64,000 nucleotides of DNA from NCBI RefSeq assembly GCF_900113875.1, contig NZ_FORA01000004.1:1-64000 (forward strand), given 5' to 3'. The translations under genes were made by a program, and so were the position numbers. Below are positions 29,851-54,778 of the stretch, one piece after another; the stretch's first letter is position 1; each line of letters starts with the position of its first letter. This stretch comes from Jannaschia pohangensis. GTDB taxonomy: Bacteria > Pseudomonadota > Alphaproteobacteria > Rhodobacterales > Rhodobacteraceae. The notes under the pieces are model-generated. The model worked only from the letters and a program-made list of their open reading frames with translations. It had not been told where the DNA came from and searched no databases.

Positions 29851-30924
29851 ATGAGCACGCAGCTCTCGAATGCCGTCGCTGTGAACATCAGCGAAACGAC
29901 GGCGCAGTTTTCCTTTGTCGGGGGCACATTTACCCTCGGTTCCGGGCCGTTCACGGACAGATCGTTGAGCGTGCAGGACAACGATTCCAATTTCGACTCC
30001 TTCAGCCCGCGCCCTGACGAAACGCAAGGCGCCGGCCGACAGACCGCGCAGCTTTTCGACGGGGCCGGGGGCCTCAGCCAGAGCGGGGTCGCATCACTTC
30101 AGCAGGTCATCACCCTGACCCACCCCGACACGGGGGCGACCGTTCAGGTTGGCGTCGTCCGGGTCAGCATCGACGACGGTTCGTTCGGTAATGGCGCGAC
30201 GCTGGCCGAGGTGTTCATTTTCGACGGACCGATCGATCCGACGGTCACCTATTCCGTCACCGCGATTAATTATTCGCCGGGTAACGGGCCATCGAATACC
30301 TATGCTTACAGCACGTTTTCGGATGGCGCCGTGCAGAGCGGAGGCGTGGTCTGCTTTGTCGCGGGCACGCTGATCCGGACGGCGCGCGGCGAGGTTCCCG
30401 TGCAATCCATCAGGCCGGGCGACCGTGTTCAAACCGTCGATCACGGTTTGCACGAGGTTCTGTGGTGCGGCAATCGGCGGTTCGACCATCTGCAACTGGT
30501 CCGGACCCCGCGTCTGCGCCCCGTTCGCATTGCCGAGGGGATGGTCGGAAATGACCGGCCTCTGCTCGTCTCACCGCAGCATCGGATCGTCGTTGGCGAT
30601 TATTTCGTCAAGGCCTGCGACCTGCCCCGAATTGCCGGACTGTCCGCGCGGATCGCGCGGGGCGTCGCGCATGTCTGGTACGTTCACCTTCTGCTTGAGG
30701 ACCATCAGGTCCTGCTGGCCAATGGGGCGCAGGCGGAAAGCCTGCTTTTGGGGCCGATGTCGCGGCGAATCATTGGGTCGGGTGGCATGTCGCACGTGAT
30801 ACCGACGGACGCGCCGCGTGTACGCGGTCTGGTGCACCGGATCTGTCGGCCCATGCTGCCGAGGGGTCATCTGTCGGACATGCGGCGAGCCTTGCCAGAG
30901 CCCGCGAATGGCATTCGGTCCTAG
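29851..30924 (+). CDS. Hint-domain (Hedgehog/intein-type) protein
   Basis: This is a 357-aa protein without a standard signal peptide. Residues 1-165 are Gly/Ser/Thr-rich beta-type sequence with acidic stretches. From Cys168 it has the Hint_2 pattern CFVAGTLIRTARGEVPVQSI...PGDRVQTVDHG, then VLWCGNRRFD, SPQHRIVV with the block-B-like His, and ANGAQAESLLLGP. Such domains can self-cleave at the Cys through a thioester. Roseobacters carry several of these proteins, often suspected to be secreted; the role is unknown. It overlaps the convergent DUF6151 gene by 4 bases. Confidence 0.9.
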   Translation: MSTQLSNAVAVNISETTAQFSFVGGTFTLGSGPFTDRSLSVQDNDSNFDSFSPRPDETQGAGRQTAQLFDGAGGLSQSGVASLQQVITLTHPDTGATVQVGVVRVSIDDGSFGNGATLAEVFIFDGPIDPTVTYSVTAINYSPGNGPSNTYAYSTFSDGAVQSGGVVCFVAGTLIRTARGEVPVQSIRPGDRVQTVDHGLHEVLWCGNRRFDHLQLVRTPRLRPVRIAEGMVGNDRPLLVSPQHRIVVGDYFVKACDLPRIAGLSARIARGVAHVWYVHLLLEDHQVLLANGAQAESLLLGPMSRRIIGSGGMSHVIPTDAPRVRGLVHRICRPMLPRGHLSDMRRALPEPANGIRS

Positions 30925-42334: not shown

Positions 42335-42931
42335 ATGACACAACGATCCTGCCCCAATTGCGGTGCCGCGCTGCCCGAGATGCTGGCCCACGCCCGCATG
42401 ATCAATTGCGAGTTCTGCGGGTCTTCGGTGGTTCTGGACGACGATGTCCTGCGCAAGGCGGGCGAGGCGGGCGAAATGCTCGACGCGCCCGAACTGGTCA
42501 CCATCGGTCGCGCTGTCCGCCTGCCGCAGGGACAGTTCACCGCCTGGGGCCATGTGCGCTATGACTACGGTCTGGGCCACTGGGACGAATACTACGGCGA
42601 GCTGAACGGCGACTGGTGCTGGCTCTCGGTCGACGAGGGCGACATTGCCTTGCAATTCAAGGTCGAAGGGAAAGGCCTTGTCGCCACCGATTTCCGGCCC
42701 CTGGCCCAGGTCGAGATCGGGGGCACCAAATACACCTGCACCGAAACCGACCACGCCACGGCCATCGCCTTTCGCGGCCAGTTGCCGGAACCCGTTGCCA
42801 TCGGGGACACGCACCGCTACGCCAACTTCCAGGGGGTCGGAGCCCGCATCGCCTCGGCCGAGATGTGGGATGGCGGGCATGCGCTCTTTGTCGGCGAATG
42901 GATCGATCCCTTCGACCTGAGGCCCGCATGA
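42335..42931 (+). CDS. Zinc-ribbon DUF4178 protein 1
   Basis: This is a 198-aa protein. An N-terminal zinc ribbon (CPNCGAALPE ... CEFCGSSV) is followed by a DUF4178-type beta-rich domain (WGHVRYDYGLGHWDEYYGEL, WCWLSVDEGDIALQFKVEG). No transmembrane segment is seen. The family is of unknown function but recurs with DUF350 and polyamine enzymes in stress-type operons. Its stop overlaps the next start by 4 bases. Confidence 0.88.
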   Translation: MTQRSCPNCGAALPEMLAHARMINCEFCGSSVVLDDDVLRKAGEAGEMLDAPELVTIGRAVRLPQGQFTAWGHVRYDYGLGHWDEYYGELNGDWCWLSVDEGDIALQFKVEGKGLVATDFRPLAQVEIGGTKYTCTETDHATAIAFRGQLPEPVAIGDTHRYANFQGVGARIASAEMWDGGHALFVGEWIDPFDLRPA

Positions 42932-44205
42932 CCGGCCACATCAAATCCATCAACTGCACCAACTGCGGTGCGGGCCTCGAGGTGATCGGCGGCGGCCGGG
43001 TGACGACCAAGGTCTGCTCCTATTGCGGGGCCGCGCTGGATGCCACCGACGCCTTCAAGGTGCTGGAAGTCTTCAGCGAGATGAAGCGCCCCGACAGCCC
43101 CTTCCGGCTTGGCATGCAGGGCGACTGGAACGGCGTCACCTTCACCATCATCGGGACCATCGGCCAGCAGGAATCCTATGGCGGCCAGACCTGGACCTGG
43201 GTGGATCATCAGCTCTATTCCCCGACCCATGGTTATGCCTGGCTTACCGTCGAGGACGGGCACACCATCATCACCCGCAAGGTTCGCGACTGGCCACAGC
43301 GGCAGTTCATCACCGAACATGTCGTTGAAAACGCGGAAAATCCGCCGAATTCCTATTGGCGGCAGCAACGCTTCACCTACTACAGTTCGTCCAATTGGCA
43401 GACGGTCTTCGTCGAGGGCGAATTCAACTGGCGCCCGCGCAGGGGCGCCCTCGGCTATACCGCCAGCCTGCTCAACAACGGCGATGACCTGGCAATGCTG
43501 CATTACGTCTCGCCGATCTCCGAAGGTGCGCGCGCCGAGCGCGAACTCGAGGTCTCCTACTATTGGCCCGAAGCCGCCGCCGCCTTCGGCGTCCGCACCA
43601 TCCCCGTCCCCAAGGTCCACCCCCTGCAACCCTACGATGACAAGGCGGCGACAGGCATTCTGAAAGTCTGGTTCGCGGCGCTTTGCGTGGCGACCGTGGC
43701 GCTGGCCATCTGGATCTCGTCCCTGCAACCGCCCGGTCAGGCGATCTATTCGGGGATGCCAGGCGACTTGCCGCCCCTGATGACCTTCACCATCACCGAT
43801 CCGACGCGACCCGCCCAGATCGCCTTGCGGCAGGACCTGAGCAATGCCTTCGCCTTCTACACGGTGAAGATGACCGGCCCCGACGGGACCGTCATGGCGG
43901 AAACCGGGCGCGAGGTCAGCTATTATTCCGGCGGCTCTGGCGATGACGCCTGGTCGGAGGGCAGCCGTCGCAGCACCCTCAACTTCGTCCCGCCCGTCGC
44001 CGGGGAATACAAGCTGACCCTGACACCCGATCCCTCGGGCACCCTGGACGCGCCACTGAAGGTTTCGGTGGCGGAAGGTCGGCGCAATGCACTCTGGCTC
44101 TGGCTGGCGCTGCCGGTCTTCCTGCTCTGCCTCGCCTGGCAGTGGACGGGGCGGATACGGCACAACAAGGCCCGGTGGGCCGGCACAGATTGGTATGATG
44201 ACTGA
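42928..44205 (+). CDS. Zinc-ribbon DUF4178 membrane protein 2
   Basis: This is a 425-aa paralogue with an N-terminal zinc ribbon (CTNCGAGLEV ... CSYCGAAL) and a DUF4178 domain (FTIIGTIGQQESYGGQTWTW, YAWLTVEDGHTIITRK). One membrane segment follows near residues 250-268, then an extracytoplasmic beta-type domain, and a second membrane segment near the C-terminus (LWLWLALPVFLLCLAWQW). The longer frame starting at 42616 is rejected because it runs across protein 1 in another frame. The ribbon faces the cytoplasm by inference. Confidence 0.88.
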   Translation: MTGHIKSINCTNCGAGLEVIGGGRVTTKVCSYCGAALDATDAFKVLEVFSEMKRPDSPFRLGMQGDWNGVTFTIIGTIGQQESYGGQTWTWVDHQLYSPTHGYAWLTVEDGHTIITRKVRDWPQRQFITEHVVENAENPPNSYWRQQRFTYYSSSNWQTVFVEGEFNWRPRRGALGYTASLLNNGDDLAMLHYVSPISEGARAERELEVSYYWPEAAAAFGVRTIPVPKVHPLQPYDDKAATGILKVWFAALCVATVALAIWISSLQPPGQAIYSGMPGDLPPLMTFTITDPTRPAQIALRQDLSNAFAFYTVKMTGPDGTVMAETGREVSYYSGGSGDDAWSEGSRRSTLNFVPPVAGEYKLTLTPDPSGTLDAPLKVSVAEGRRNALWLWLALPVFLLCLAWQWTGRIRHNKARWAGTDWYDD

Positions 44206-44402
44206 TGTTTCTGCGTGCTGTCGCCATGATCCTATCCGCTGGCCTCTTTATCGGGGCGGCCAACGCCAGCCTCAACAGTTGGGGCCTTGGCGCCGACCGC
44301 GACCTTCGCGGCCTTGGCACGCCCACGGCCTTCAGTCGAAGCCCGTCCATCCGCACGGGATCGGGCAGCAACGGAACCACACGCCGCCTCAGCGTGAAAT
44401 AA
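44205..44402 (+). CDS. Small exported peptide (65 aa), unknown
   Basis: The start shares its A with the stop of DUF4178 protein 2 (TGATG). A signal peptide (MFLRAVAMILSAGLFIGAANAS) leaves a mature part of about 43 residues rich in Gly, Ser, Thr and Arg, with no Cys. It is conserved in position within the operon here, but I know no family. Confidence 0.65.
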   Translation: MFLRAVAMILSAGLFIGAANASLNSWGLGADRDLRGLGTPTAFSRSPSIRTGSGSNGTTRRLSVK

Positions 44403-44418
44403 CCCAAGGGAGCACCCC

Positions 44419-44643
44419 ATGACCGCCTTTGACGGAATCCTCTTCTCCGAAGTCGTCTCGACCGTCTTCTACACCTTCTTCGGGCTGGCGCTTCTGCTGG
44501 CCTGCTGGTGGCTGATCGAGCTGGTCACCCCCTTCTCGCTCCGCAAGGAGCTGGAGGAAGACCAGAACACCGCCATCGCCATCGTGATGGGGGCGCTGTT
44601 CCTGTCGCTCGCCATCATCATCGCGGCGATCCTGCGGGTGTGA
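44419..44643 (+). CDS. DUF350 family membrane protein
   Basis: This 74-aa protein has two transmembrane segments (VSTVFYTFFGLALLLACWWLIE and AIAIVMGALFLSLAIIIAAIL), with the polar LRKELEEDQNTA link typical of DUF350/YjfL (PF03994). In E. coli the relative YjfL lies in an operon with a PspA-like protein and a glutathionylspermidine-synthetase-like protein. Its stop overlaps the GTG start of the next gene by 4 bases. Confidence 0.88.
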   Translation: MTAFDGILFSEVVSTVFYTFFGLALLLACWWLIELVTPFSLRKELEEDQNTAIAIVMGALFLSLAIIIAAILRV

Positions 44644-46169
44644 ACCACCCCCTGTCGACGCGGACCCTGTCGCCGCGGGGCACGGAGCTTTGGTTGCTCG
44701 GCACGACACTGGTCGTCGCCGTGGCGGGCCTCATCTACGAGCTGATCGCGGCCACGGTGTCGTCCTATCTTCTGGGCGATTCCATCCGGCAATTCAGCTT
44801 TGTCATCGGTGTCTTCCTGTCGGCCATGGGGGTTGGCGCCTTCCTGTCGCGGTTTGTCCACGACGCGGTGACGGGCTTCGTGCGTGCGCAGATCGGTCTG
44901 GGCCTGGTCGGCGGGTTCGCCGCCCTGATGACCTTCTCCAGCTATGCCATGGCCGAGGCGGTCGCCGTTCCGCTCTATGGCTCGCTCATCGTGGTGGGGG
45001 CCCTGTCGGGCATGGAAATCCCCCTGCTGGCCCGCATCCTCAAGACCATCGGCGCGGGCCGTTTCCGTTTCGAGAACGTGCTCAGCTTCGACTACCTCGG
45101 CTCGCTCCTCGCCTCACTGGCCTTCCCCGTGCTGATCGTGCCCAACCTCGGTCTGATCTCTGCGGGGCTTGCCTTCGGCTTGCTCAACCTCGCCGTCGCG
45201 GGCGGCACGCTCTGGGTGTTTCGCGACCACCTGGGGTGGGGCACGCGCGCGGCCTGGGGGCTGGCGACGGCCTTGGTCGCGGCGGCCCTGATCTGGTCGG
45301 GGCCCATGGCTTCCGCCCTCGATGCGCGGCTTTACGAGGATGAAATCATCTTCAACACCCGCACCGAGTATCAGCAGGTCACCGTCACGCGCCACCGCGG
45401 CCAGACCCGCTTGATGCTGGATGCGTCGATCCAGTTCGATACCCTGGACGAAGCGCGCTATCACGAACCGCTGGTCCATCCGGCCATGGCGCAGGCCGCG
45501 CGCCGTGCCGACATCCTGATCCTGGGGGGCGGCGACGGCATGGCCACCCGCGAGGTCCTGCGCTGGCCCGATGTAGAACGCATCACGCTGGTCGATCTGG
45601 ACCCCGCCGTCACCACCCTCTTTCGCGACCGCGACAGCCTGGCTGCCCTCAACGATTTCGCCCTGCGCGATCCGCGCGTCACCATCGTGAACGCCGATGC
45701 CTTCACATATGTGCGCGACGGAGAGGGGGCCTTCGATGTGGCGATCCTCGATCTGCCGGACCCCAAGAACCTGTCGCTCTCCAAGCTCTACACCGTCGAA
45801 TTCTATCGCCTTCTTAAACGTCGCATGTCGGCCCAAGGCATCGTCGTGACCCAGGCGGGCTCCCCGCTCTTTGCGACCGATGCCTTCTGGATCACCGCCA
45901 CGACGGTTGGCACCGAATGGTCAACGGTCCCTTACCAATCCTACGTACCCAGTTTCGGCCTCTGGGGCTTCGTCATGGGCCTGCCCGAGGGGATGCGTCC
46001 ACGCGCCGACCCGTTGCCGGACGGCCTGCGCTATCTGACACCCGGGGTCTGGCAGGCCGCGCAGGCCTTCGATGCGGGGATCGGCCCGCGTGACGTTCCG
46101 GTCAACACGCTCTCGACCCATCCGCTGCCGCGCGCCTACGAGGCGGGGTGGAAGGCCTGGTACGAATAG
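44640..46169 (+). CDS. Membrane-fused spermidine-synthase-like aminopropyltransferase
   Basis: This is a 509-aa protein from a GTG at 44640 inside the DUF350 stop (GTGA). The N-terminal ~210 residues hold about seven membrane segments. The C-terminal domain is a SpeE fold with the decarboxylated-SAM motif LILGGGDGMATREVLRW (about residue 295) and the catalytic-type DLPDP (about 371). The catalytic residues look intact, so activity is plausible. It probably acts at the membrane on a polyamine or an unknown acceptor. It ends 1 base before the convergent speD. Confidence 0.9.
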   Translation: MNHPLSTRTLSPRGTELWLLGTTLVVAVAGLIYELIAATVSSYLLGDSIRQFSFVIGVFLSAMGVGAFLSRFVHDAVTGFVRAQIGLGLVGGFAALMTFSSYAMAEAVAVPLYGSLIVVGALSGMEIPLLARILKTIGAGRFRFENVLSFDYLGSLLASLAFPVLIVPNLGLISAGLAFGLLNLAVAGGTLWVFRDHLGWGTRAAWGLATALVAAALIWSGPMASALDARLYEDEIIFNTRTEYQQVTVTRHRGQTRLMLDASIQFDTLDEARYHEPLVHPAMAQAARRADILILGGGDGMATREVLRWPDVERITLVDLDPAVTTLFRDRDSLAALNDFALRDPRVTIVNADAFTYVRDGEGAFDVAILDLPDPKNLSLSKLYTVEFYRLLKRRMSAQGIVVTQAGSPLFATDAFWITATTVGTEWSTVPYQSYVPSFGLWGFVMGLPEGMRPRADPLPDGLRYLTPGVWQAAQAFDAGIGPRDVPVNTLSTHPLPRAYEAGWKAWYE

Positions 46170-46170
46170 G

Positions 46171-46500
46171 TCAGGCGGGCACGCCGCGCGGCACGATCTG
46201 TCGGCTGGTCCGCGCCGGGGCCAGCGCCGCGTCCAGATGATCCGCCGCCGCCTCGACCGGCGCATCGCCACACATGAACAGGTCAAGCGCAGCGTAGCCG
46301 TGTTCGGGCCAGGTGTGCACCGTGACATGGCTCTCGGCCAGCATCAGGACGCCGGTTACGCCGCCGCCCTCGAAGGGATGGAAATGCCGCGACAACACGG
46401 TGGCCCCCGCCGCGACCGCCGCCGCCTCCATCGCCTCGGCCAGCGTCTCCGGGTCCAGATTGCCGCCCCAGTGTTCCAGGATCAGGTGCCGTCCGATCAT
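46171..46500 (-). CDS. speD: S-adenosylmethionine decarboxylase proenzyme
   Basis: This 109-aa protein is of the short bacterial SpeD class. Self-cleavage occurs at Glu56-Ser57 in LAESHVTVHTWPEHG, and His62 and Cys77 are at the same spacing as Ser63/His68/Cys83 of the Thermotoga enzyme. It makes decarboxylated SAM, the aminopropyl donor for the convergent SpeE-like gene. It lies 4 bases after dtd and ends the minus-strand operon. Confidence 0.92.
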   Translation of the reverse strand: MIGRHLILEHWGGNLDPETLAEAMEAAAVAAGATVLSRHFHPFEGGGVTGVLMLAESHVTVHTWPEHGYAALDLFMCGDAPVEAAADHLDAALAPARTSRQIVPRGVPA

Positions 46501-46504
46501 CGCC

Positions 46505-46942
46505 TCAGCGCTCCATCGGGATGGTCACGGGGCCATCGTTGACCAGATGCACGGCCATGTCCGCACCGAACCGCCCGGTCTGCGTCGCGATGCCAAGGTC
46601 GCGCAGGCAGGTAACGAAATGCTCATACAGCGCCTCGCCCACCTCGGGCCGGGCCGCCGTCGAAAAGCCGGGCCGGTTGCCGCGCGACGTATCGGCGGCC
46701 AGCGTGAACTGACTGACCACCAGCGCCTCGCCGCCGACATCCGTGATTGCCCGGTTCATCTTGCCCGCCTCGTCCACGAAGATGCGCAGCTTCGCGACCC
46801 GCTCGGCCAGCGCCCGGGCGTTGTCTTCGGTATCGCCCTCCATCGCGCAGACCAGGATCATCAGCCCCGTGCCACAGCGCCCGACCGTCACGCCGTCGAT
46901 ATCGACGCGAGCTTCGGTCACGCGCTGGATGACGGCCTTCAC
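46505..46942 (-). CDS. dtd: D-aminoacyl-tRNA deacylase
   Basis: This 145-aa protein has the DTD signature [17 protein letters not shown] with the nucleophilic Thr/Gln environment and the C-terminal [11 protein letters not shown]. It removes D-amino acids wrongly charged to tRNA. It overlaps pfkB by 4 bases. Confidence 0.95.
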
Positions 46943-47820
46943 AATTCCCGGTCCCAGGGCGGGTTCGCGCCCGCGCGGCTAACCGTGATGGCCGCCGCCG
47001 CGACGCCGAGTTTAAGCGCCTCGCTCAACGCGTCATGCGGGGGCAGGCCCTTGGTCAACGCCTTGGCGCGGTGCAGTCCGGCCAGAAAGCCCGCGTTGAA
47101 CGTGTCTCCCGCGCCCACGGTATCGACCACATCCACCTTGCGGGCGGCGACATGAACCTCGTCCGTCCGGGTGATGGCGCGCACGCCTTCGGCCCCCTTC
47201 GTCAGGCACAGAACCTTCGGCCCAAGGTCCAGCACATCGCCCGCCGACATGCCAAGCCACTCCATATCCTCGTCCGACAGCTTGACGATATCGGCCAGCC
47301 CCAACAGACGGGTCAGCCGCGCGCGGAAGCGATCCTCGTCGCGGATGAAGCCGGGGCGGATATTTGGGTCGATCATGATCGGCAGGTGCCGGTTGTCGAG
47401 CGCCAGCGCCGCATAGGCCTCGGCGCAGGGCTCCACCGCAAGGCTGATCCCGCCGATGAACAGCGCGGTGACCCCGTCCATGTCCGGCGCCTCTGCATGG
47501 GTCAGCATCCGGCCCGCCGTGCCCTCGTCATAAAAGGCGTATTCCGCGTGCCCATCCGTCAGCGTCACAAAGGCCAGCGTCGTGGGCCGGTCCGACAGGG
47601 CCGCGCGGTTGCCGACGCGGGACGCCGACATGGCCTCCGACAACCGTTGACCGAACAGATCGGTCGACAGACCGGTGTGCAGCGCCACCGGCGCGCCAAG
47701 CCGCCCCAGGGCGATGGCCGTGTTGAACACCGCGCCGCCCGTCGCCGGATAGAACCCCGGCCCGTCGGAGGTCTCGCGGGGCAGCATGTCGATCAGGGCT
47801 TCGCCTGCACAAAGGATCAT
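46939..47820 (-). CDS. PfkB-family carbohydrate kinase (fructokinase-like)
   Basis: This is a 293-aa protein. PfkB motif 1 is [15 protein letters not shown] and motif 2 is [17 protein letters not shown] with the catalytic Asp. It is most similar to fructokinases in layout, but no sugar genes are nearby. Its place inside the TelA/SPFH/SpeD run may be chance or may link it to nucleoside or sugar chemistry. Confidence 0.9.
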
Positions 47821-47833
47821 GGTCGGGGTCCGT

Positions 47834-48928
47834 TCATTGCGATTGCGCGGCGATGTAGCCGACGATGGCCGCCGCGATCAACGCCGCGATGACGGCGAAG
47901 GCGATCTTCCACTTGGACCAGGGCCGTTCGCCCTGCACCCGGCCGGTTTGCCCATTGACGACGAAGCGATAGGACGTGCCGCGGTATTTGTAGGCCGCGA
48001 CCCAGACCGGCAGCAGGACATGCTTGAACGTCACGTCGCTGATCCGCGTGTCGATCCGGTCGATCCGCTGCTGGTCGCCGCCGATGTCCATGCGCACGTC
48101 GCGGGCGATCACGGCATCCATATGCGCGCGCGCCTCCGTCAGGCCGTCGGCCAGTTCGACTTGATAGGCTTCGGCCCGGAATCCGGCCAGGAAGTGCGGC
48201 GCATAGGGCGACAGGGCCGACATGTCCCAGGGTTCCAGCGCGTCGGTGTGCCGTTTGGGCAGCGACCGGGACGCAAGGACGACCACATCGTCGAAGAATC
48301 GCGCGACCCGTCCCCGGCGCGGGGTCCAGCGGATCTTGGCGACCTGCACCTGCTGGCGCTTGCCGTCGCGCACCACGGTCTGCGTCTCCCAATAGGTGTC
48401 GCCGCGCTGGCCGGAATAGGTGCTCTCGGTCTGGGCGTCGAAGGTCCAGAAGGGCACATAGATGCCCGACAGCTTGCGACCCTTCTTGGCGTAGTCCTGC
48501 AATCCGCCGGGGGCGAACCACAGGTTTCCCAGCCACTCCGACATGGCCTGATGGGCCTGGCGCTCCTCAAGCACGAAGGGGATGACACCCGCCGGCTTGA
48601 TGTGCCGGTTGGTGCCTGTGCCGGTCACCACGGGCGTGGCGCAGAACGGGCATTCGGCGGCGTGGATGTCGGGGTCGAACTCCACCTGCGCGCCGCAACT
48701 GGGGCAGTCGAGAACCCGGGTCTCCTCCTGCTCTGCCGCGCCGCCACGGGCGTCCAGCCCTTCCTCGATGGCGATTTCGCGGATCGTGTCGCGCGTCGCG
48801 GGCAGGCTTTCGGTATTGCCGCAATGGTCGCAGATCAGCCGGTTGTCGCCCGGATCGAACCGCATGTCGCTGCCGCAGTTGGCGCAGGGAAAGCGGTGTT
48901 CCTCGGGGGCGGGGGGCGGCGTGGTCAT
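47834..48928 (-). CDS. Double zinc-ribbon protein with a C-terminal membrane anchor
   Basis: This is a 364-aa protein from the ATG at 48928. Two TFIIB-type zinc ribbons are at the N-terminus (CANCGSD...CDHCGN, about residues 15-37, and CPSCGAQ...CPFCATP, about 74-97). A conserved middle domain contains SGIYVPFWTFDAQTESTYSG and GRVARFFDDVVVLASRSLP, and one hydrophobic segment follows at the end (IAFAVIAALIAAAIVGYIAA). It probably anchors a ribbon module to the membrane. The family recurs with SPFH/TelA genes. Confidence 0.82.
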   Translation of the reverse strand: MTTPPPAPEEHRFPCANCGSDMRFDPGDNRLICDHCGNTESLPATRDTIREIAIEEGLDARGGAAEQEETRVLDCPSCGAQVEFDPDIHAAECPFCATPVVTGTGTNRHIKPAGVIPFVLEERQAHQAMSEWLGNLWFAPGGLQDYAKKGRKLSGIYVPFWTFDAQTESTYSGQRGDTYWETQTVVRDGKRQQVQVAKIRWTPRRGRVARFFDDVVVLASRSLPKRHTDALEPWDMSALSPYAPHFLAGFRAEAYQVELADGLTEARAHMDAVIARDVRMDIGGDQQRIDRIDTRISDVTFKHVLLPVWVAAYKYRGTSYRFVVNGQTGRVQGERPWSKWKIAFAVIAALIAAAIVGYIAAQSQ

Positions 48929-49464
48929 AGAAACCTCTGGATGGACTTCGGCGCCATGATCCGCAGGGCGTTGTCCCGCAGACGGTAGTGGCGCCAGACA
49001 TGATAGGCGACGTGGAACACCACGATAACCGCAAGGCCATAGAATTCCACTGTGTGCAACGTCCCGGCCCAGGCATTCGCGGTCGGCAACCCGAGCGGTG
49101 GCGCAATCGGAAGGATGGTGCCCGCGAACAGGACCCGGCTGGCCGTCAGCCCCAGAAGGAAGCCGGTCAAGGCCACCCCGAACAGCCCCCAGATCAGCGT
49201 CAGGTGCAGCGGTCGATGGATCGCCCGCGCCCACCCCTGCAATTTCGGCCCGGGCCGGGAGGCCAGACCTGACCGCAGCAACCACCCCGTCCAGAGCAGC
49301 GCCATCGTCACGAAGATCAGGCCAAAGACGGAATGCAGCTTGACCCAGATCGACCCCCAGGCGGCGACATCGCGCGGCTCGACCAGCAGGAACCACACGA
49401 AGAACGGCACCATCGTCCAATGCAGCGCCTTGAGAAGGGCGCGCCGTGTCGGACGCGCGATCAT
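48925..49464 (-). CDS. Cytochrome b561-type membrane protein
   Basis: This is a 179-aa protein from the ATG at 49464. It has four transmembrane segments with His residues at positions suited to two b-hemes (LHWTMVPFFVW, KLHSVFGLIF, HRPLHLTLIWG, HTVEFYGLAVIVVFHVAYHVW). It would pass electrons between quinol and an unknown partner. It overlaps its neighbours on both sides by 4 bases. Confidence 0.85.
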   Translation of the reverse strand: MIARPTRRALLKALHWTMVPFFVWFLLVEPRDVAAWGSIWVKLHSVFGLIFVTMALLWTGWLLRSGLASRPGPKLQGWARAIHRPLHLTLIWGLFGVALTGFLLGLTASRVLFAGTILPIAPPLGLPTANAWAGTLHTVEFYGLAVIVVFHVAYHVWRHYRLRDNALRIMAPKSIQRFL

Positions 49465-49796
49465 TCCGCGTGGGTGTCGAAACACCCGGCGCGTTCGGCC
49501 AGCAGGGGCATCCCCGTCTCCATCCACCAGCGCAGCGACACCCATCCCGCCGACATGCCCGGTCCCTCGTCGATGACGGCGGTCAGGCGCATGCGCGTCG
49601 GGTCGACCGGGCAGGGCAGGGCGGTGTCGGTCACTGCCAGGAATACCCCGCGCAGCAATTGGTAGCGGTCCGCCACGTCCGTCGGCACCGGGTGCCCCTC
49701 CAGCGCCGCCGCCATCCGTTGCCAGACGGGGCGGTCGCCGCGCAGGCCCCAGGCCACAGGCTCGGGGTCGAAGACCGCGTCCCAGGCAAAGGCCAT
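49461..49796 (-). CDS. Unknown small cytosolic protein (111 aa)
   Basis: This is the shorter reading of a long open frame. The start at 49796 shares one base with the SPFH stop and gives MAFAWDAVFDPEPVAWGLRG. The remaining sequence contains RYQLLRGVFLAVTD, VDPTRMRLTAVIDEGPG and WVSLRWWMETGMPLLAERAG. It has no signal or membrane segment, and I recognise no family. Coupling at both ends shows that it is a real operon member. Confidence 0.72.
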   Translation of the reverse strand: MAFAWDAVFDPEPVAWGLRGDRPVWQRMAAALEGHPVPTDVADRYQLLRGVFLAVTDTALPCPVDPTRMRLTAVIDEGPGMSAGWVSLRWWMETGMPLLAERAGCFDTHAE

Positions 49797-50914
49797 CAGA
49801 TGCCGGGCGGGGGCGGGGGCGGCATGACGGTGAACAGCTGCGCCAACTCGTCCACGTCCCCGGCCTTCAGCCAGCCATCCTGACCTTGGGTCCAGACATG
49901 GGTGTCGCGCTTGACCTCGCCCGCGCTGACCATGCGGCCCAGGGCGGCCTTGCTGAACGGGCCCTTGGTCTCGCCGTTCTCGGCCACGTGCCAGACATGC
50001 TCCACGGGCGGGGGCGGGGGTGCTGCGGGGGCGGCGTGATGCTGCGGCTGCGCCCCCCAGGGCCCCGCGGCCCCGGCGATGCCTTGCGCCATGCCCATGC
50101 CCATCCCCATGCCAAGCCCCGCGCCCATTCCCGAATTGGGCGTGGCGGCGGCGGTCTGCATCGCCTCGGCGGTGGCGTATTGCTGATACTTCGACAGATC
50201 GCCCAGAACCCCCATCGACGTGCGCTTGTCCAGCGCCTCCTCGACGGCGGGCGGCAGCGAGATGTTCTCGATATACAGCTCGGGCACCGCGATGCCGTAG
50301 TCGGCGGTCGTCACCGTCACCTGATCGGCCACGATCTTGCCCAACCCGTCGGTATTCGCCGCCATGTCGAGCACCGGGATATTGCTCCCCGCCAGCGCCC
50401 GGCTCGCCGATTGCACGATCATGTTGCGCAGCTGGAACTGCACCTCGTCCTGGGTGAACTCGCCGTCGGTGCCCACGATCTCGGTCAGGAACTTGCCCGG
50501 GTCCGACACCTTGATCGCATAGGTCCCGAACGCGCGCAGCCGCACCGGCCCGAACTCCGGATCGCGCAGGGTGATCGGGTTCTTGGTGCCCCACTTCAGG
50601 TCGGTGAACCGCCGTGTGGCGACGAAATAGATCTCGGACTTGAAGGGCGACTTGAAGCCGTGATCCCAATGCTGAAGCGAGGTCATGATCGGCATGTTGT
50701 TCGTCTCGAGCATGTAGAGCCCGGGCATGAACACATCGGCCAGCTGGCCCTCGTGGATGAAGACGGCGGCCTGCCCTTCGCGCACGGTCAGCTTGGCGCC
50801 ATACTTGATCTCGTGCCCATAGCGGTCGAACCGATAGACCATCGTGTCGCGGGTATCGTCCGTCCATTCGATGACGTCGATGAACTGGCCGGAAAGGAAA
50901 TCGAGAATGGACAT
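49796..50914 (-). CDS. SPFH-domain protein with a C-terminal GYF_2 domain (YdjI/virion-core-like)
   Basis: This is a 372-aa protein. The N-terminal ~240 residues are the SPFH/band-7-like YdjI type (RYGHEIKYGAKLTVREGQAAVFIHEG, FMPGLYMLETNNMPI, VRLRAFGTYAIKVSDPGKFL). A Met/Gly-rich then Pro/Ala/His-rich linker follows (about residues 262-305), then a GYF_2 domain (WHVAENGETKGPFSKAALGR ... THVWTQGQDGWLKAGDV), and the end is proline-rich. GYF domains bind proline-rich segments, so the tail could self-associate. It has no membrane segment and is probably peripheral to the membrane. Confidence 0.9.
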   Translation of the reverse strand: MSILDFLSGQFIDVIEWTDDTRDTMVYRFDRYGHEIKYGAKLTVREGQAAVFIHEGQLADVFMPGLYMLETNNMPIMTSLQHWDHGFKSPFKSEIYFVATRRFTDLKWGTKNPITLRDPEFGPVRLRAFGTYAIKVSDPGKFLTEIVGTDGEFTQDEVQFQLRNMIVQSASRALAGSNIPVLDMAANTDGLGKIVADQVTVTTADYGIAVPELYIENISLPPAVEEALDKRTSMGVLGDLSKYQQYATAEAMQTAAATPNSGMGAGLGMGMGMGMAQGIAGAAGPWGAQPQHHAAPAAPPPPPVEHVWHVAENGETKGPFSKAALGRMVSAGEVKRDTHVWTQGQDGWLKAGDVDELAQLFTVMPPPPPPGI

Positions 50915-51087
50915 GAAGGGCCTCCGTTAGGACTTCAGAAAAATGCGGGCGGGCTCTACCGGTCGCCGCTTGCGCATCAGAATTGCACATATAGGGGCTG
51001 TGTGTCGCCTTTTGCATCCCGCAGATGGGGGATGGCGGGCGACCGGGGCCTTGCGGGCCGGATTGGCGGTGGAAATCCGGATGTCGG

Positions 51088-51642
51088 TCACGATACCCCA
51101 CCCCCGAGGAAAGATCGCAAGGGGCGACCGTCGCGGTGCCCCCAGAGGTCGATCATCACACCACAAAACGCGCCGTCCGCATCGTTCAGGCGCAGCGCCG
51201 TAAACCTGTCGTCCGCCGCGCTCCCGCAGAGCCCGCTGGCCAGGTCGAACCAGCCATGTGGCCCGGTCGGAAAGGCAAAGACGCCGCCCGGCGCCCCGAC
51301 CCATCCCGCCGAATACTGCGCAACCTCCGTCACCACGGCGTCGCCGCTGCCCAGGGTCAAATGCGCGCCCCGGGTTTCCACCGTCACGCTTTCGACGGCT
51401 GTCATCGGACAGGCTGTCGACGCCTCTCCCCAGATGACCTGAGGCTCGAACCCCGGCGTGGCCTTGGTAAAGACGCGCAGTCCTGTCGTCTCCAATGCCA
51501 GTGTCACCGCACCGCCCGCACCGCCGACCGGGGCGAAGCCAAGGCAGCCAGACGTCAGGATCAGCGGCCCGTGATCTGTCCAGACACCCGAACGCTCGCT
51601 GATCCGGTCGATCCATGCGCGCCCACCCGTCTGATCCGACAT
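51088..51642 (-). CDS. Unknown protein (184 aa)
   Basis: This is a beta-rich, Gly/Ala-rich soluble protein (MSDQTGGRAWIDRISERSGVW ... WVGAPGGVFAFPTGPHGWFDLASG). It has two isolated Cys and no signal peptide. It starts 3 bases after DUF2927. A 173-bp gap with no clear hairpin separates it from the SPFH gene, so a second promoter may lie there. I do not recognise the family. Confidence 0.65.
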   Translation of the reverse strand: MSDQTGGRAWIDRISERSGVWTDHGPLILTSGCLGFAPVGGAGGAVTLALETTGLRVFTKATPGFEPQVIWGEASTACPMTAVESVTVETRGAHLTLGSGDAVVTEVAQYSAGWVGAPGGVFAFPTGPHGWFDLASGLCGSAADDRFTALRLNDADGAFCGVMIDLWGHRDGRPLRSFLGGGVS

Positions 51643-51645
51643 ACC

Positions 51646-52599
51646 CTAGACCGGCCCCGCGTCGCGCAACTCGGCGGCGATTTGCGCCACGATGGGCCGG
51701 GCTTCCTCGGCGGTCATGCCGATGCGCAAGCGACGATCATAGAGCATCCGCAGCAAAAGCTCGTCATGTCCGGTCAAGAGCGCGAATTCCTCGTCATCGT
51801 TGAAGATCGACGGGCGCGCCGCAGGGCTGTCATTGGCCAGGCCCAATCCTTGGGCGATCTCTTCGTGATAGCACGACAGGCGGAACAGGTCGGGATGTTC
51901 GGAGCGCACGAAGGCGATGGCCGAGATATAGGCGTTCGGTCGTTCCGACGACGACGAGGCGTAGACCGCGCAATAGGTGGAACTGCCCAAGCTGGTGATC
52001 TCGCGGATGGTCTGCCGCCCCAGGGCCGGCTCGACGGCGGCGATCTGGGGACCAAGGGCCCGCTGCTCGTCCACCGAGGCCACGAAGATGTGGTAATTGC
52101 CGCCCCCGTTCACCAGCGAGATGGGGTGACCGCTGATCCGGCGCAGCCGGGCGACATAGGCCGCGATCCGCGACCGGTCCTCGCGCTGCGTCTCGGCGTC
52201 GACGGAGGCGCCGAAATGCAGCTGGATGCGCACCGGGCGCTCCCACCGACGCAGCTGCGCGCGGCTCTGCCGGGCCACATAGCGCCCGTTGATCTGCACA
52301 TATTCGGAAAACAGCGCCACCCGCTCGAAGTTGCGCGCCAGTTCTGCGGGGCCAAACGGCGTGTCGGGTCCGCCGCCATCGACCCGCATCAGCCCATCCG
52401 CCAGCAGACGCCGCTCCAGCCGCGCATAGAACAGCCGCGCCGACCGGCTTTCCGCCGAGACCTCCGGGCTCGACACCTCGGGACGGGCCACAGGCGGGGT
52501 CGGGGCCGCGTCCACAGGCGGTGGTGCGGTCTGGCTTACGGGCTGACATGCGGCAAGGCCGACGGCCAGGGCCGCCACGAGGAGAGCTTTGAAGTGCAT
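51646..52599 (-). CDS. DUF2927 lipoprotein
   Basis: This 317-aa protein has a lipoprotein signal (MHFKALLVAALAVGLAAC, lipobox LAAC), a Pro-rich linker, and a DUF2927 domain. That domain has a metzincin-like CYHEEIAQGLGLANDSPAARPSIFNDDEEFA segment, which suggests a metal-binding or relict protease site. It would sit on the periplasmic face of a membrane. Its start shares one base with the telA stop. Confidence 0.87.
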   Translation of the reverse strand: MHFKALLVAALAVGLAACQPVSQTAPPPVDAAPTPPVARPEVSSPEVSAESRSARLFYARLERRLLADGLMRVDGGGPDTPFGPAELARNFERVALFSEYVQINGRYVARQSRAQLRRWERPVRIQLHFGASVDAETQREDRSRIAAYVARLRRISGHPISLVNGGGNYHIFVASVDEQRALGPQIAAVEPALGRQTIREITSLGSSTYCAVYASSSSERPNAYISAIAFVRSEHPDLFRLSCYHEEIAQGLGLANDSPAARPSIFNDDEEFALLTGHDELLLRMLYDRRLRIGMTAEEARPIVAQIAAELRDAGPV

Positions 52600-53786
52600 C
52601 AGGCTGTCGGAACAGACGCCCCGGCGTCGCTGGAGGCATCTCGCGCCTTGGCCGAGGCGAGCGTCTCGCGCAGTTCCTTCTCCATGTGCTCCAGTTCCTT
52701 TTCGGCCTCGGCGCGGCGGGCCTTGCCCTCGTCCGCGATCTGCAGGCTTTCGTTGATCGTCGCCACCAGATCCTCGTTGGCCTGCCGCACGGCCTCGATA
52801 TCGAAGACGCCGCGCTCCATTTCCGTGCGCACCACCGCATTGGCCTCGCGCAGGTTCTTGGCATTCGCGGTCAGCAATTCGTTGGTCAGGTCGTTGGCGT
52901 CTCGCACCGCCTCGGCGGCCTCGCGCGACCGCTGGATGGTCACGGCCTGCGCCAACTGCGTCTCCCAGAGGGGCACCGTGTTCACGAGGGTCGAGTTGAT
53001 CTTGGTGACCAGGCTCTTGTCGTTCTCCTGCACCAGCCGGATCGAGGGGAGCGACTGCATCGTCACCTGCCGCGTCAGCTTCAGGTCGTGAACCCGGCGC
53101 TCCAAGTCGTCGCGGGCCGCGCGCATGTCGCGCAGCTCCTGACTGCCGATCATCTTGTCGTCCTCGGGCAGGGCGGCCACGGCGGCTTCCTTGGCGGGGA
53201 TGGTCGTCGCATCCAGCTCGGCCAGCTTTGCCTCGCCCGCCGAGATATAAAGCCCAAGCTCCTCGTAGAAATCGAGGGTCTTCTCATAGAGCATGTCCAG
53301 CGACTTGATGTCCTTGAGCAGCACATGTTCGTGCTTCAACAGATCGTCGGTCACCTTGTCGATCTGGCTCTGCACGTTTTCGAATTTCGCCAGGAAGTTG
53401 GAAAAGGGCGCGGCCTTCCCCGTCAGCTTTTCCCACCAGGACCGCTTGCGCCGCACGTCCAGTTCGCTGACCGAAAAGCCGCGAATGGTGCTGACGATGC
53501 CGCGCAGACTGTCGCCCGCCGGTCCCACGTCCTTGTTCTTCACGTCCGCCAGCATGGCCTGGCTGATCTGCTGCAATTCCGCCTGCGCCGCCGATCCGAA
53601 GCTGATGATCGACTGGGTGTTCGTCATGTCCAGCTCGTCCATCCGCTTGCGGATCGCCTCGGCGACCGGGGCCGGGGCCGCCTCCAGTGCGACAAGCTCC
53701 GTGCCCGGCTCGCGCAGGGGGATGGCGGCGACCTCGGCGATCTCGGCGGTGGCAAGCTCGGCCTGCTGGCGGATAGTGGTGTCCAT
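52599..53786 (-). CDS. telA: Toxic-anion (tellurite) resistance protein TelA
   Basis: This 395-aa protein is all-helical and typical of PF05816: SIISFGSAAQAELQQISQAML, KRSWWEKLTGKAAPFSNFLAK, the DMLYEKTLDFYEELGLYISA core, and the conserved LPSIRLVQENDKSLVTKINS and TVPLWETQLAQAV motifs. The C-terminus is a long coiled coil. The family is linked to tellurite and envelope-stress tolerance. It is two bases from xpaC and the pair is almost always together. Confidence 0.93.
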   Translation of the reverse strand: MDTTIRQQAELATAEIAEVAAIPLREPGTELVALEAAPAPVAEAIRKRMDELDMTNTQSIISFGSAAQAELQQISQAMLADVKNKDVGPAGDSLRGIVSTIRGFSVSELDVRRKRSWWEKLTGKAAPFSNFLAKFENVQSQIDKVTDDLLKHEHVLLKDIKSLDMLYEKTLDFYEELGLYISAGEAKLAELDATTIPAKEAAVAALPEDDKMIGSQELRDMRAARDDLERRVHDLKLTRQVTMQSLPSIRLVQENDKSLVTKINSTLVNTVPLWETQLAQAVTIQRSREAAEAVRDANDLTNELLTANAKNLREANAVVRTEMERGVFDIEAVRQANEDLVATINESLQIADEGKARRAEAEKELEHMEKELRETLASAKARDASSDAGASVPTA

Positions 53787-53788
53787 GG

Positions 53789-54679
53789 TCAGTCTCCCGT
53801 TGGCAGGCCGTCCGCTTTCAGACGGTCCCGCAAAACTTCGATTTCTACATCCAGATCGCTGCGGTCCGAAATCAGCAGCGTCTCGCGCTTGGCCTCGATC
53901 CCGCGTTGCAGATCGCCCAGAAGGTCCAGGTAATCCGCCTTGGCCTTCGCATCGCGCGTCGCGGCATAAAGGTCGGCGAACTTCACCGTCGCGTCGCGCG
54001 CCCCCATCAGGTAGACGCCCAGATACTTGCGCGCCGAGGTCAGGTCGCGCGGATCATCCTCGACCGTGCGGAACATGGCACGTGCCGTCGCGGCCACGCG
54101 GGCGACCTGTGCCTCGGCCTCGCGGTCCCTGGCGCGCAACACCGCATCCTGCATGGCGACCAGGTGCTTCTCGGCCTCCTCGATCGACCGGGCGACGCGC
54201 TCGGTCTGGAAGGTATCGACCCCTTCCATCCCCTTGTCCGACATCGGGTCCGCCCCGAAGGCCACCAGATGCAACGCCCCCGCCACCACGCCGTAGACCA
54301 CCGCGGGCAACAGCCCCGCCAAGCCCACCGTCGCGGCCAGCGTCACGCCGACGCCGGTCAGGACCGCCCCGGCGATCTTGCGCGGAAAGGCCGGGCGGCG
54401 GGCGATGCGCCGCTCGGCCCAGGCGGCCTCGGCCTTCAATCCCTCGCGGGTCAGCGCCGCACCCCCGAACAGGACCGCACCGGCCAAGAGGTTCACGGCC
54501 AGCGCCACGGCCCCGTCCTGAAAGAACGCCGTCACCACGGGCAACACGGCCAGCACCATCAGGATGCTCACCCGCGCGCGCCCCTTCAACGGCCGCTTCA
54601 ACCCGATCTTGGGGGGCGGCGGGGCCGACTTGTCGACCTTGCCCTCGGGGCTGAACTGACCCCCATAGCGCTGCGCCAT
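53789..54679 (-). CDS. xpaC: XpaC-family membrane protein (5-bromo-4-chloroindolyl phosphate hydrolysis family)
   Basis: This 296-aa protein has about three to four membrane segments in the first half (ARVSILMVLAVLPVVTAFF, AVALAVNLLAGAVLFGGAAL, KIAGAVLTGVGVTLAATVGLAGLLPAVVYGVVAG; positions about 35-145) and a coiled-coil C-terminal half of the XpaC type (PF10112). The family name reflects an early assay; the real role is unclear and is probably scaffolding with TelA. Confidence 0.9.
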   Translation of the reverse strand: MAQRYGGQFSPEGKVDKSAPPPPKIGLKRPLKGRARVSILMVLAVLPVVTAFFQDGAVALAVNLLAGAVLFGGAALTREGLKAEAAWAERRIARRPAFPRKIAGAVLTGVGVTLAATVGLAGLLPAVVYGVVAGALHLVAFGADPMSDKGMEGVDTFQTERVARSIEEAEKHLVAMQDAVLRARDREAEAQVARVAATARAMFRTVEDDPRDLTSARKYLGVYLMGARDATVKFADLYAATRDAKAKADYLDLLGDLQRGIEAKRETLLISDRSDLDVEIEVLRDRLKADGLPTGD

Positions 54680-54682
54680 GAC

Positions 54683-54778
54683 CTAGAGCCCCCCGCCGTC
54701 CAGCACGCCAAGGCCCGCCAGCGTCACAAGCACGCAGAGCGCGGCAAAGGCGATTTTCTGCACCCCGTCAGAACCCAT
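54683..54778 (-). CDS. 31-aa membrane microprotein upstream of xpaC
   Basis: The ATG at 54778 opens MGSDGVQKIAFAALCVLVTL and the stop is at 54683-54685, three bases before the xpaC ATG. Nearly the whole peptide is one membrane helix (IAFAALCVLVTLAGLGVL) with Gly-rich ends. CGGGGGA lies 7 bases upstream as a ribosome-binding site. No homologue can be named from memory, but spacing and composition argue that it is translated. Confidence 0.55.
   Translation of the reverse strand: MGSDGVQKIAFAALCVLVTLAGLGVLDGGGL

Follow-up and report, generated by a model that had tools for sequence, protein, structure and literature searches.

A membrane-fused aminopropyltransferase module of Jannaschia pohangensis and its small partner protein with a near-invariant C-terminal lysine

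The DNA analyzed here, hereafter the window, is a stretch of 64,000 nucleotides (nt) of Jannaschia pohangensis (contig NZ_FORA01000004.1), and the region under study, positions 42335 to 54679, holds two convergent gene runs that include a gene for a membrane-fused, SpeE-like aminopropyltransferase. We found that the region consists mainly of two separately conserved modules: module A (42335-46500), which is a member of the known membrane aminopropyltransferase systems, an enzyme class already described, and module B, the TelA-SPFH run. What is new here is a small partner protein in module A whose last residue is a near-invariant lysine. On the basis of sequence patterns we propose, tentatively and with a probability of about 0.4, that this C-terminal lysine may be the acceptor of the aminopropyl group transferred by the SpeE domain, which would yield a membrane-anchored polyamine. 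Genes were called from open reading frames (ORFs) and a Pfam scan of all 16 genes studied in the window; those of module A are listed below (TM, transmembrane; AdoMet, S-adenosylmethionine; aa, amino acids).

42335-42931, plus strand: DUF4178 protein a, zinc ribbon at the N-terminus (PF13785, 1.4e-16; TM-free by hydropathy)
42928-44205, plus strand: DUF4178 protein b, zinc ribbon, DUF4178 and two TM segments at residues 243-261 and 388-406 (PF13785, 4.8e-9)
44205-44402, plus strand: 65-aa lysine-tailed membrane protein ending in RRLSVK, the proposed aminopropyl acceptor (Lys-ending counterparts at the same position in relatives)
44419-44643, plus strand: DUF350 protein, two TM segments (PF03994, 1.6e-13)
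44640-46169, plus strand: SpeE-like protein, 7-TM domain fused to an aminopropyltransferase domain, GTG start (NF002956, PRK03612, 583.7 bits against a cut-off of 472; PF01564 Spermine_synth, 2.5e-32)
46171-46500, minus strand: SpeD, AdoMet decarboxylase of class 1b, which pairs with the SpeE run (PF02675 AdoMet_dc, 1.3e-29; TIGR03330, 106 bits against 75.65; aligned to 2iii)

An earlier reading of this DNA, made from its letters alone (the sequence-only reading), had placed the ends of speE and speD one base apart, which is correct (46169 and 46171), and had counted 17 genes, which is not: there are 16, five on the plus and eleven on the minus strand, the last one ending at 54679. The families that it named were recovered by Pfam, and it overlooked dtd (46505-46942) and pfkB (46939-47820) in the minus run. 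The zinc ribbons it described are visible by eye as CxxC pairs, and their Pfam matches stay below the cut-off.

The 65-aa ORF, which matched nothing in Pfam or NCBIfam, sits between the second DUF4178 gene and the DUF350 gene, a position conserved in relatives. As the gene caller missed the copy in the window, its case rests on this position and on the relatives. The counterparts are mostly of 45-100 aa with a single TM segment; some are lipoproteins, and some are tails fused to DUF4178. A terminal lysine was found at 116 of 118 distinct SpeE loci, a figure that pools 75 calls made blind to the lysine, nine fused forms recognized by their Lys end and a remainder picked by eye with the pattern known. 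In the lysine-blind test, which took from the gene caller the small ORF just after DUF4178 at the 118 loci, 76 such ORFs were found and 75 of them end in lysine; the lone exception (L101) is an unrelated-looking 99-aa protein, with an ORF ending in GYSFGK nearby. In nine further loci the tail is fused to DUF4178, and in 13 without a called small ORF, the window included, a Lys-ending ORF is visible. The other 20 loci had no DUF4178 near SpeE by tblastn, although some of them have a more distant one by hidden Markov model (HMM) and eight were traced onto further contigs of their own genomes; in 18 of the 20 there is a Lys tail, either there or where that genome carries its DUF4178. Of the remaining two, L098 showed none, and for L149 the DUF4178 locus is interrupted by the contig end and the tail is unreadable. 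All eight genomes in which SpeE stands alone carry DUF4178 elsewhere. For comparison, lysine is the last residue of 158 of the 1407 called proteins, the tails included.

The same pattern was observed when the search was anchored on DUF350. Among the best 80 of 584 related loci, 68 bear DUF350, and in 60 of these a small ORF precedes it, eight of the 60 having been picked by eye among several ORFs; 59 end in lysine, and the sixtieth is a fragment lying at the edge of its contig. Eight DUF350 loci lack the small ORF; in six of them lysine is the last residue of the DUF4178 protein itself, after a Gly/Ser-rich tail, and a DUF4178 protein at a contig start (L102) is likewise Lys-ending. Plasmids provided a set separate from these loci: 13 records hold the enzyme and seven were examined, the other six being from the same genera. 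The Lys tail is present in all six plasmid loci with a whole SpeE and module genes, and the seventh record, a Rhodovulum plasmid (L241, 6007-6711), holds a C-terminal SpeE-7TM fragment only, without the module.

Across 67 tails lysine stands last in every one, and it is the single invariant position among the last 15; the median pairwise identity is 0.30. The last codon is AAA in 43 and AAG in 16, all three stop codons occur, and the gap to DUF350 ranges from -4 to 125 nt. Since stops and gaps vary in this way, we rejected the idea that the terminal lysine results from a start-stop overlap. One PspA-type operon (L210) has two different Lys-ending, Gly/Ser-rich ORFs.

In the literature we found no description of a lysine-tailed substrate and only one paper on DUF4178, and the main text of PMC11237479 contains no word starting with "lysine"; as far as we could tell the lysine-tailed partner is apparently undescribed, in a search whose coverage did not extend to the full text of Li 2019 or the PMC11237479 supplements.

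In the SpeE-like enzyme of module A, residues Q265, D270, Y274, H275, E276, D299, D321, D353, D371 and D374, which we take to form the aminopropyltransferase active site, are unchanged in 57 of 57 SpeE sequences, and the residues of the QxxxxDExxYHE, GGGD and DxPDP motifs are likewise retained in all 57. An aminopropyltransferase of known structure, 7xif, can be aligned along these stretches and has GGGEG in place of the GGGDG found here. The NF002956 cut-off is exceeded as well by four other members, which come from PspA-type, TelA-type and other operons. The N-terminal part has seven segments that are hydrophobic on average in the alignment of 57, the second being the least so, and these membrane segments carry acidic residues (E126 and D151 in 57/57, E34 in 54/57). 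In SpeD, the AESH, HTWPE and CGD stretches of 2iii are retained, with the Ser cleavage site and the His and Cys residues, presumably the catalytic ones, in place.

SpeD belongs with the SpeE module rather than with the TelA run. In the family sample of 149 genomes, SpeD is present in 33: in each of the 11 genomes whose 7-TM SpeE is full-length and in 22 of the 138 others (Fisher, 1.4e-8), and in 20 of these 22 the SpeE-like match is limited to the catalytic domain. Within the genus, SpeD occurs in 13 of 13 genomes with DUF4178 (beside SpeE in nine, elsewhere in four) and in one of the seven without it, where the SpeD match (contig 11 of G444, 30512-30793) has one in-frame TGA and is perhaps a relic. 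As the genome of the window has a single SpeE-like match and no NspC match, its SpeD is left without another evident partner. In six loci of Campylobacterota (L090, L094, L095, L099, L100, L101), SpeE-7TM is followed by an NspC-like decarboxylase of the PLP (pyridoxal phosphate) type; three such proteins were checked and scored 296 to 375 bits, below the cut-off of 409.

Charge patterns suggest on which side of the membrane these proteins lie. In 57 of the 67 tails the N-terminal flank of the TM segment is more positive than the C-terminal one, and in seven of the nine fused forms (L109, L123, L126, L142, L143, L148, L202) one TM segment is predicted between DUF4178 and the tail; the tail proteins of L198 and L238 resemble lipoproteins. 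These patterns would place the tail outside the cytoplasm; DUF4178 is probably cytosolic. In SpeE, the number of Lys plus Arg per loop is 2.23, 3.40 and 3.02 for loops 2-3, 4-5 and 6-7, versus 0.21, 0.47 and 0.28 for loops 1-2, 3-4 and 5-6, a bias with the same direction in 57/57 sequences. With seven TM segments, this bias would place the catalytic domain, by charge rules, probably outside the cytoplasm as well. Of 44 sequences of the flavin amine oxidase found in many related operons, 27 show a twin-Arg-like motif and 13 a lipobox-like one.

The mechanism that we propose is as follows. In the part that is already known, SpeD supplies decarboxylated AdoMet, from which the 7-TM-fused SpeE domain moves the aminopropyl group to an acceptor other than free putrescine; the terminal lysine as this acceptor is our addition. 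By chemical logic, the side chain of a C-terminal lysine would be a tethered omega-amine, and on a flexible Gly/Ser-rich tail it would resemble a tethered cadaverine, which could enter the amine tunnel of the SpeE fold. The membrane-anchored polyamine would then alter local charge or packing at the membrane surface, and DUF4178, DUF350 and a scaffold that is exchanged from lineage to lineage (PspA-CesT, SPFH or TelA) would sense or organize the patch. Hypusine and silaffin are known cases in which an amine chain is built on a protein lysine, at internal lysines and in soluble or eukaryotic systems; the proposed modification would be like them in chemistry, but on the C-terminal lysine of a membrane protein. 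If this is so, both the protein modification and this way of holding polyamines at the cell envelope would be new, and the PspA, SPFH and TelA operons would share one chemistry. Membrane-fused aminopropyltransferases were reportedly first described by Li et al. in 2019; a near-invariant C-terminal lysine on a small unannotated partner makes the question of their target testable.

Several points weigh against this proposal. The link between SpeE and the tail is drawn from sequence, and the C-terminal lysine could instead be needed for recognition, insertion or stability. In one genome (L098/L233) no tail was found near SpeE or near DUF4178, although both are present. As for sidedness, 10 of the 67 tails lack the N-in charge bias (nine equal, one less positive), and two of the nine fused forms (L201, L207) gave two predicted TM segments. 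If tail and SpeE are both outside, decarboxylated AdoMet must cross the membrane, for which we know of no precedent; if SpeE is cytosolic, tail and enzyme are on opposite sides. No SpeD was seen beside SpeE in the six Campylobacterota loci, where a carboxylated group moved first and decarboxylated afterwards would yield the same aminopropyl. Finally, an HMM of the family XpaC had no match in the operon loci, a set that holds no known XpaC as a positive control.

A different acceptor has also to be considered: SpeE could aminopropylate some small amine or the head group of a lipid and so change the membrane charge, the lysine tail only docking the small protein to SpeE, DUF350 or DUF4178, or binding anionic lipid. 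SpeE is fused to a membrane domain, DUF350 is a membrane protein, and a docking tail also accounts for an invariant end; besides, PMC11237479 proposes that such systems alter membranes by monitoring polyamines or by aminopropylating other substrates. In our judgement, however, docking would rarely require one particular residue at the very end of a tail whose other positions have diverged to the identity given above, and no recurrent lipid-handling gene was seen among the listed clusters, most neighbors being unscanned; we regard this explanation as somewhat unlikely. That the SpeE-like protein does no more, together with SpeD, than produce spermidine or a related polyamine, as the annotation "polyamine aminopropyltransferase" would suggest, is very improbable, and we rejected it: the protein scores 126.8 bits with the speE equivalog model TIGR00417, far under the cut-off of 249.55, and PMC12803844 (2025) states that bacterial fusion-type proteins were shown experimentally to be uninvolved in spermidine or spermine synthesis.

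The minus-strand genes that follow SpeD are two bystanders and module B:

46505-46942, minus strand: dtd, D-aminoacyl-tRNA deacylase, bystander (PF02580; near many SpeD-less TelA runs)
46939-47820, minus strand: PfkB sugar kinase, bystander (PF00294; pfkB near many SpeD-less TelA runs)
47834-48928, minus strand: zinc-ribbon membrane protein of the TelA run (zinc-ribbon matches below cut-off; C-terminal TM; 38/40 TelA loci)
48925-49464, minus strand: cytochrome b561 (PF01292, 1.2e-10)
49461-49796, minus strand: 111-aa protein of the TelA run, no match in the Pfam scan
49796-50914, minus strand: SPFH protein (Band_7_1) with a C-terminal GYF domain (PF13421, 1.2e-100; PF14237 GYF_2, 4e-21; 39/40 TelA loci)
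51088-51642, minus strand: 184-aa protein of the TelA run, no match in the Pfam scan
51646-52599, minus strand: DUF2927 protein, N-terminus lipobox-like by eye (PF11150, 1.4e-61; 37/40 TelA loci)
52599-53786, minus strand: TelA (PF05816, 1.6e-105, over the cut-off)
53789-54679, minus strand: XpaC, Halogen_Hydrol (PF10112, 3.1e-27; 38/40 TelA loci)

The sequence-only reading had proposed both runs as a single candidate membrane-stress system. Across the family this does not hold: TelA is present in 133 of the 149 genomes and DUF4178 in eight, and in the other seven DUF4178 genomes TelA lies on a different contig in every case. The order of the plus run (DUF4178a, DUF4178b, DUF350, SpeE) is kept in these seven, the small ORF being present in all of them, as well as in 12 other genomes of the genus and across phyla. 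Outside the genus we examined by tblastn 40 of the 133 TelA loci, seven from the DUF4178 genomes and 33 chosen mostly for long contigs; SPFH (39), the zinc-ribbon protein (38), XpaC (38) and DUF2927 (37) are nearly always there, and SpeE, SpeD, DUF4178 and DUF350 were found in 0 of the 40. In the genus the claim fares better. DUF4178 is present in 13 of its 20 genomes, the module occupying in all 13, the window included, one shared site adjoining OtnK, and the TelA run is adjacent in all 11 further genomes that can be checked, the twelfth being interrupted by a contig end; Jannaschia seohaensis (L072; L158 is identical in sequence) is one of the genus members. Since the adjacency is kept in the genus and absent in the rest of the family sample, it is a trait of the genus and not of the family. 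The run XpaC-TelA-DUF2927-SPFH(GYF)-zinc ribbon (47834-54679 in the window; L023-L062) is in itself widely conserved in the family, and our literature search on XpaC, TelA and SPFH found nothing describing it.

Beyond the family, DUF4178 was found in 26 of 398 genomes of a Pseudomonadota sample and in 4 of 289 in the class. When the best 80 of the 584 loci were grouped by protein clustering, DUF4178b-type proteins were present in 68, DUF4178a in 52, a flavin amine-oxidase-like protein (one member checked with Pfam) in 36, a SpeD cluster in 27 and an NspC-like decarboxylase in six. SPFH, of the same protein family as in the TelA run, is present in 27 of the 80, in 26 of them beside DUF4178 or SpeE and in one within the TelA run of L072. 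In a tree of 34 operon and 21 of the 40 TelA-run SPFH proteins, the two kinds form two groups, except that the SPFH-GYF protein of a gammaproteobacterial SpeE operon (L097) joins the TelA-run side with 100/100 support on a long branch. Among 19 further regions examined, PspA-CesT operons are represented: Pfam found CesT and PspA in L195 and PspA in L198, and L193, L194, L196 and L210 are alike by their sequence ends only; L199 showed no SpeE.

TelA itself was found in three such settings. An Alteromonas plasmid (L238) has a run of SpeE, SpeD, a 169-aa protein, TelA (Pfam, 1.1e-25), DUF4178, a Lys-tailed lipoprotein and DUF350; in L197, from the same phylum and another class, TelA (Pfam, 6.7e-15) lies within the SpeE run; and in L228 (Nitrospinota) TelA (Pfam, 1.9e-68) is divergent from SPFH-DUF4178. 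It should be noted that our TelA HMM included the L228 and L238 proteins, whose scores with it are thus by construction, and Pfam is the independent test. About 0.41 such associations would be expected by chance, and the probability of three or more is 0.009, a rough figure in which the 118 loci approximate the scanned set. The small proteins adjoining TelA in L238 and L228 had no Pfam XpaC match. A zinc-ribbon HMM was not used, its matches being mostly to SPFH zinc ribbons and antisense frames.

How the two runs of the window relate can then be read in two ways. According to the sequence-only reading, they would be one membrane-stress system in which TelA, XpaC and SPFH act by design together with the SpeE run. 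The adjacency in all 11 checkable genus genomes, TelA within the gene runs of L238 and L197 and divergently placed in L228, SPFH in many operons and the grouping of the L097 protein, long branch notwithstanding, speak for it, but most TelA genomes of the family are without DUF4178, the two are not neighbors in seven of the seven others with both, and XpaC went unrecognized in the operon loci; we rejected a single unit for the family and consider joint action by design quite unlikely. Alternatively, module A may have landed beside module B once in the ancestor of the genus and been inherited with no functional tie. This would explain the single site in all 13 genomes and the unlinked modules elsewhere in the family sample; against it stand the associations that TelA and SPFH show independently in further lineages, and we hold it doubtful. 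Elsewhere SPFH often, and TelA in the three loci, lie next to SpeE or DUF4178 genes, so that the link is not pure coincidence. In the genus, module B, an envelope module of most of the family, may supply the SPFH/TelA scaffold of module A.

Extending our acceptor proposal, one could picture a widespread bacterial system in which polyamines are built on an anchored protein outside the cytoplasm: with the acidic residues of its membrane segments, the 7-TM domain would pass the cationic decarboxylated AdoMet outward, the outward-facing SpeE domain would add aminopropyl units to the terminal lysine, an exported amine oxidase, where present, would act on the product, and PspA-CesT, SPFH or TelA would organize the assembly from inside. 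Taken as a whole, this picture is unlikely.

Module A resembles several known systems. A fusion of an MFS/7-TM region with a spermidine synthase-like domain, accompanied by an AdoMet decarboxylase and DUF350, was reportedly described by Li et al. in 2019 (Biochem J 476:2579), with an acceptor said to be other than putrescine. The window shares with it the fused membrane aminopropyltransferase, the class 1b SpeD and the DUF350 neighbor; the lysine-tailed protein and the pair of zinc-ribbon DUF4178 genes are not known to belong to the system reported there. The aminopropyl modification suggested by the sequence-only reading agrees with this published view, also found in PMC11237479, of an acceptor beyond free putrescine; that reading missed the small lysine-tailed protein. 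The yjf operon of E. coli comprises the ATP-grasp protein YjfC, DUF350, DUF1190 and the PspA-like YjfJ; as there, DUF350 accompanies polyamine enzymes in the window, but Pfam found no glutathionylspermidine-synthetase-like ATP-grasp protein among the 16 genes. In the second group of PspA-CesT/Tir operons, 7-TM-SpeE, DUF350, DUF4178 and PspA occur together, which the mSystems 2024 paper (PMC11237479) relates to membrane stress. The window has the first three of these but neither PspA nor CesT among its 16 genes by Pfam, and the only PspA match of its genome is on a different contig. Module B has TelA and XpaC adjacent, like the pair of Bacillus and Listeria, and unlike it adds DUF2927, SPFH-GYF and the zinc-ribbon membrane protein; a telA mutant of Listeria is, as reported in PMC12791056, susceptible to nisin and tellurite.

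Two minor observations concern related operons. The family contains a second type of SpeE-7TM operon (L064, L065, L066), with a rhomboid-GNAT fusion in L065 and a tail protein ending in AGK, and DUF4178 was not found at these three loci. In addition, a family of multi-TM-looking proteins (F9), one member of which had no Pfam family over the cut-off, follows the amine oxidase in L110, L121, L131, L135, L139, L141, L150 and L151.

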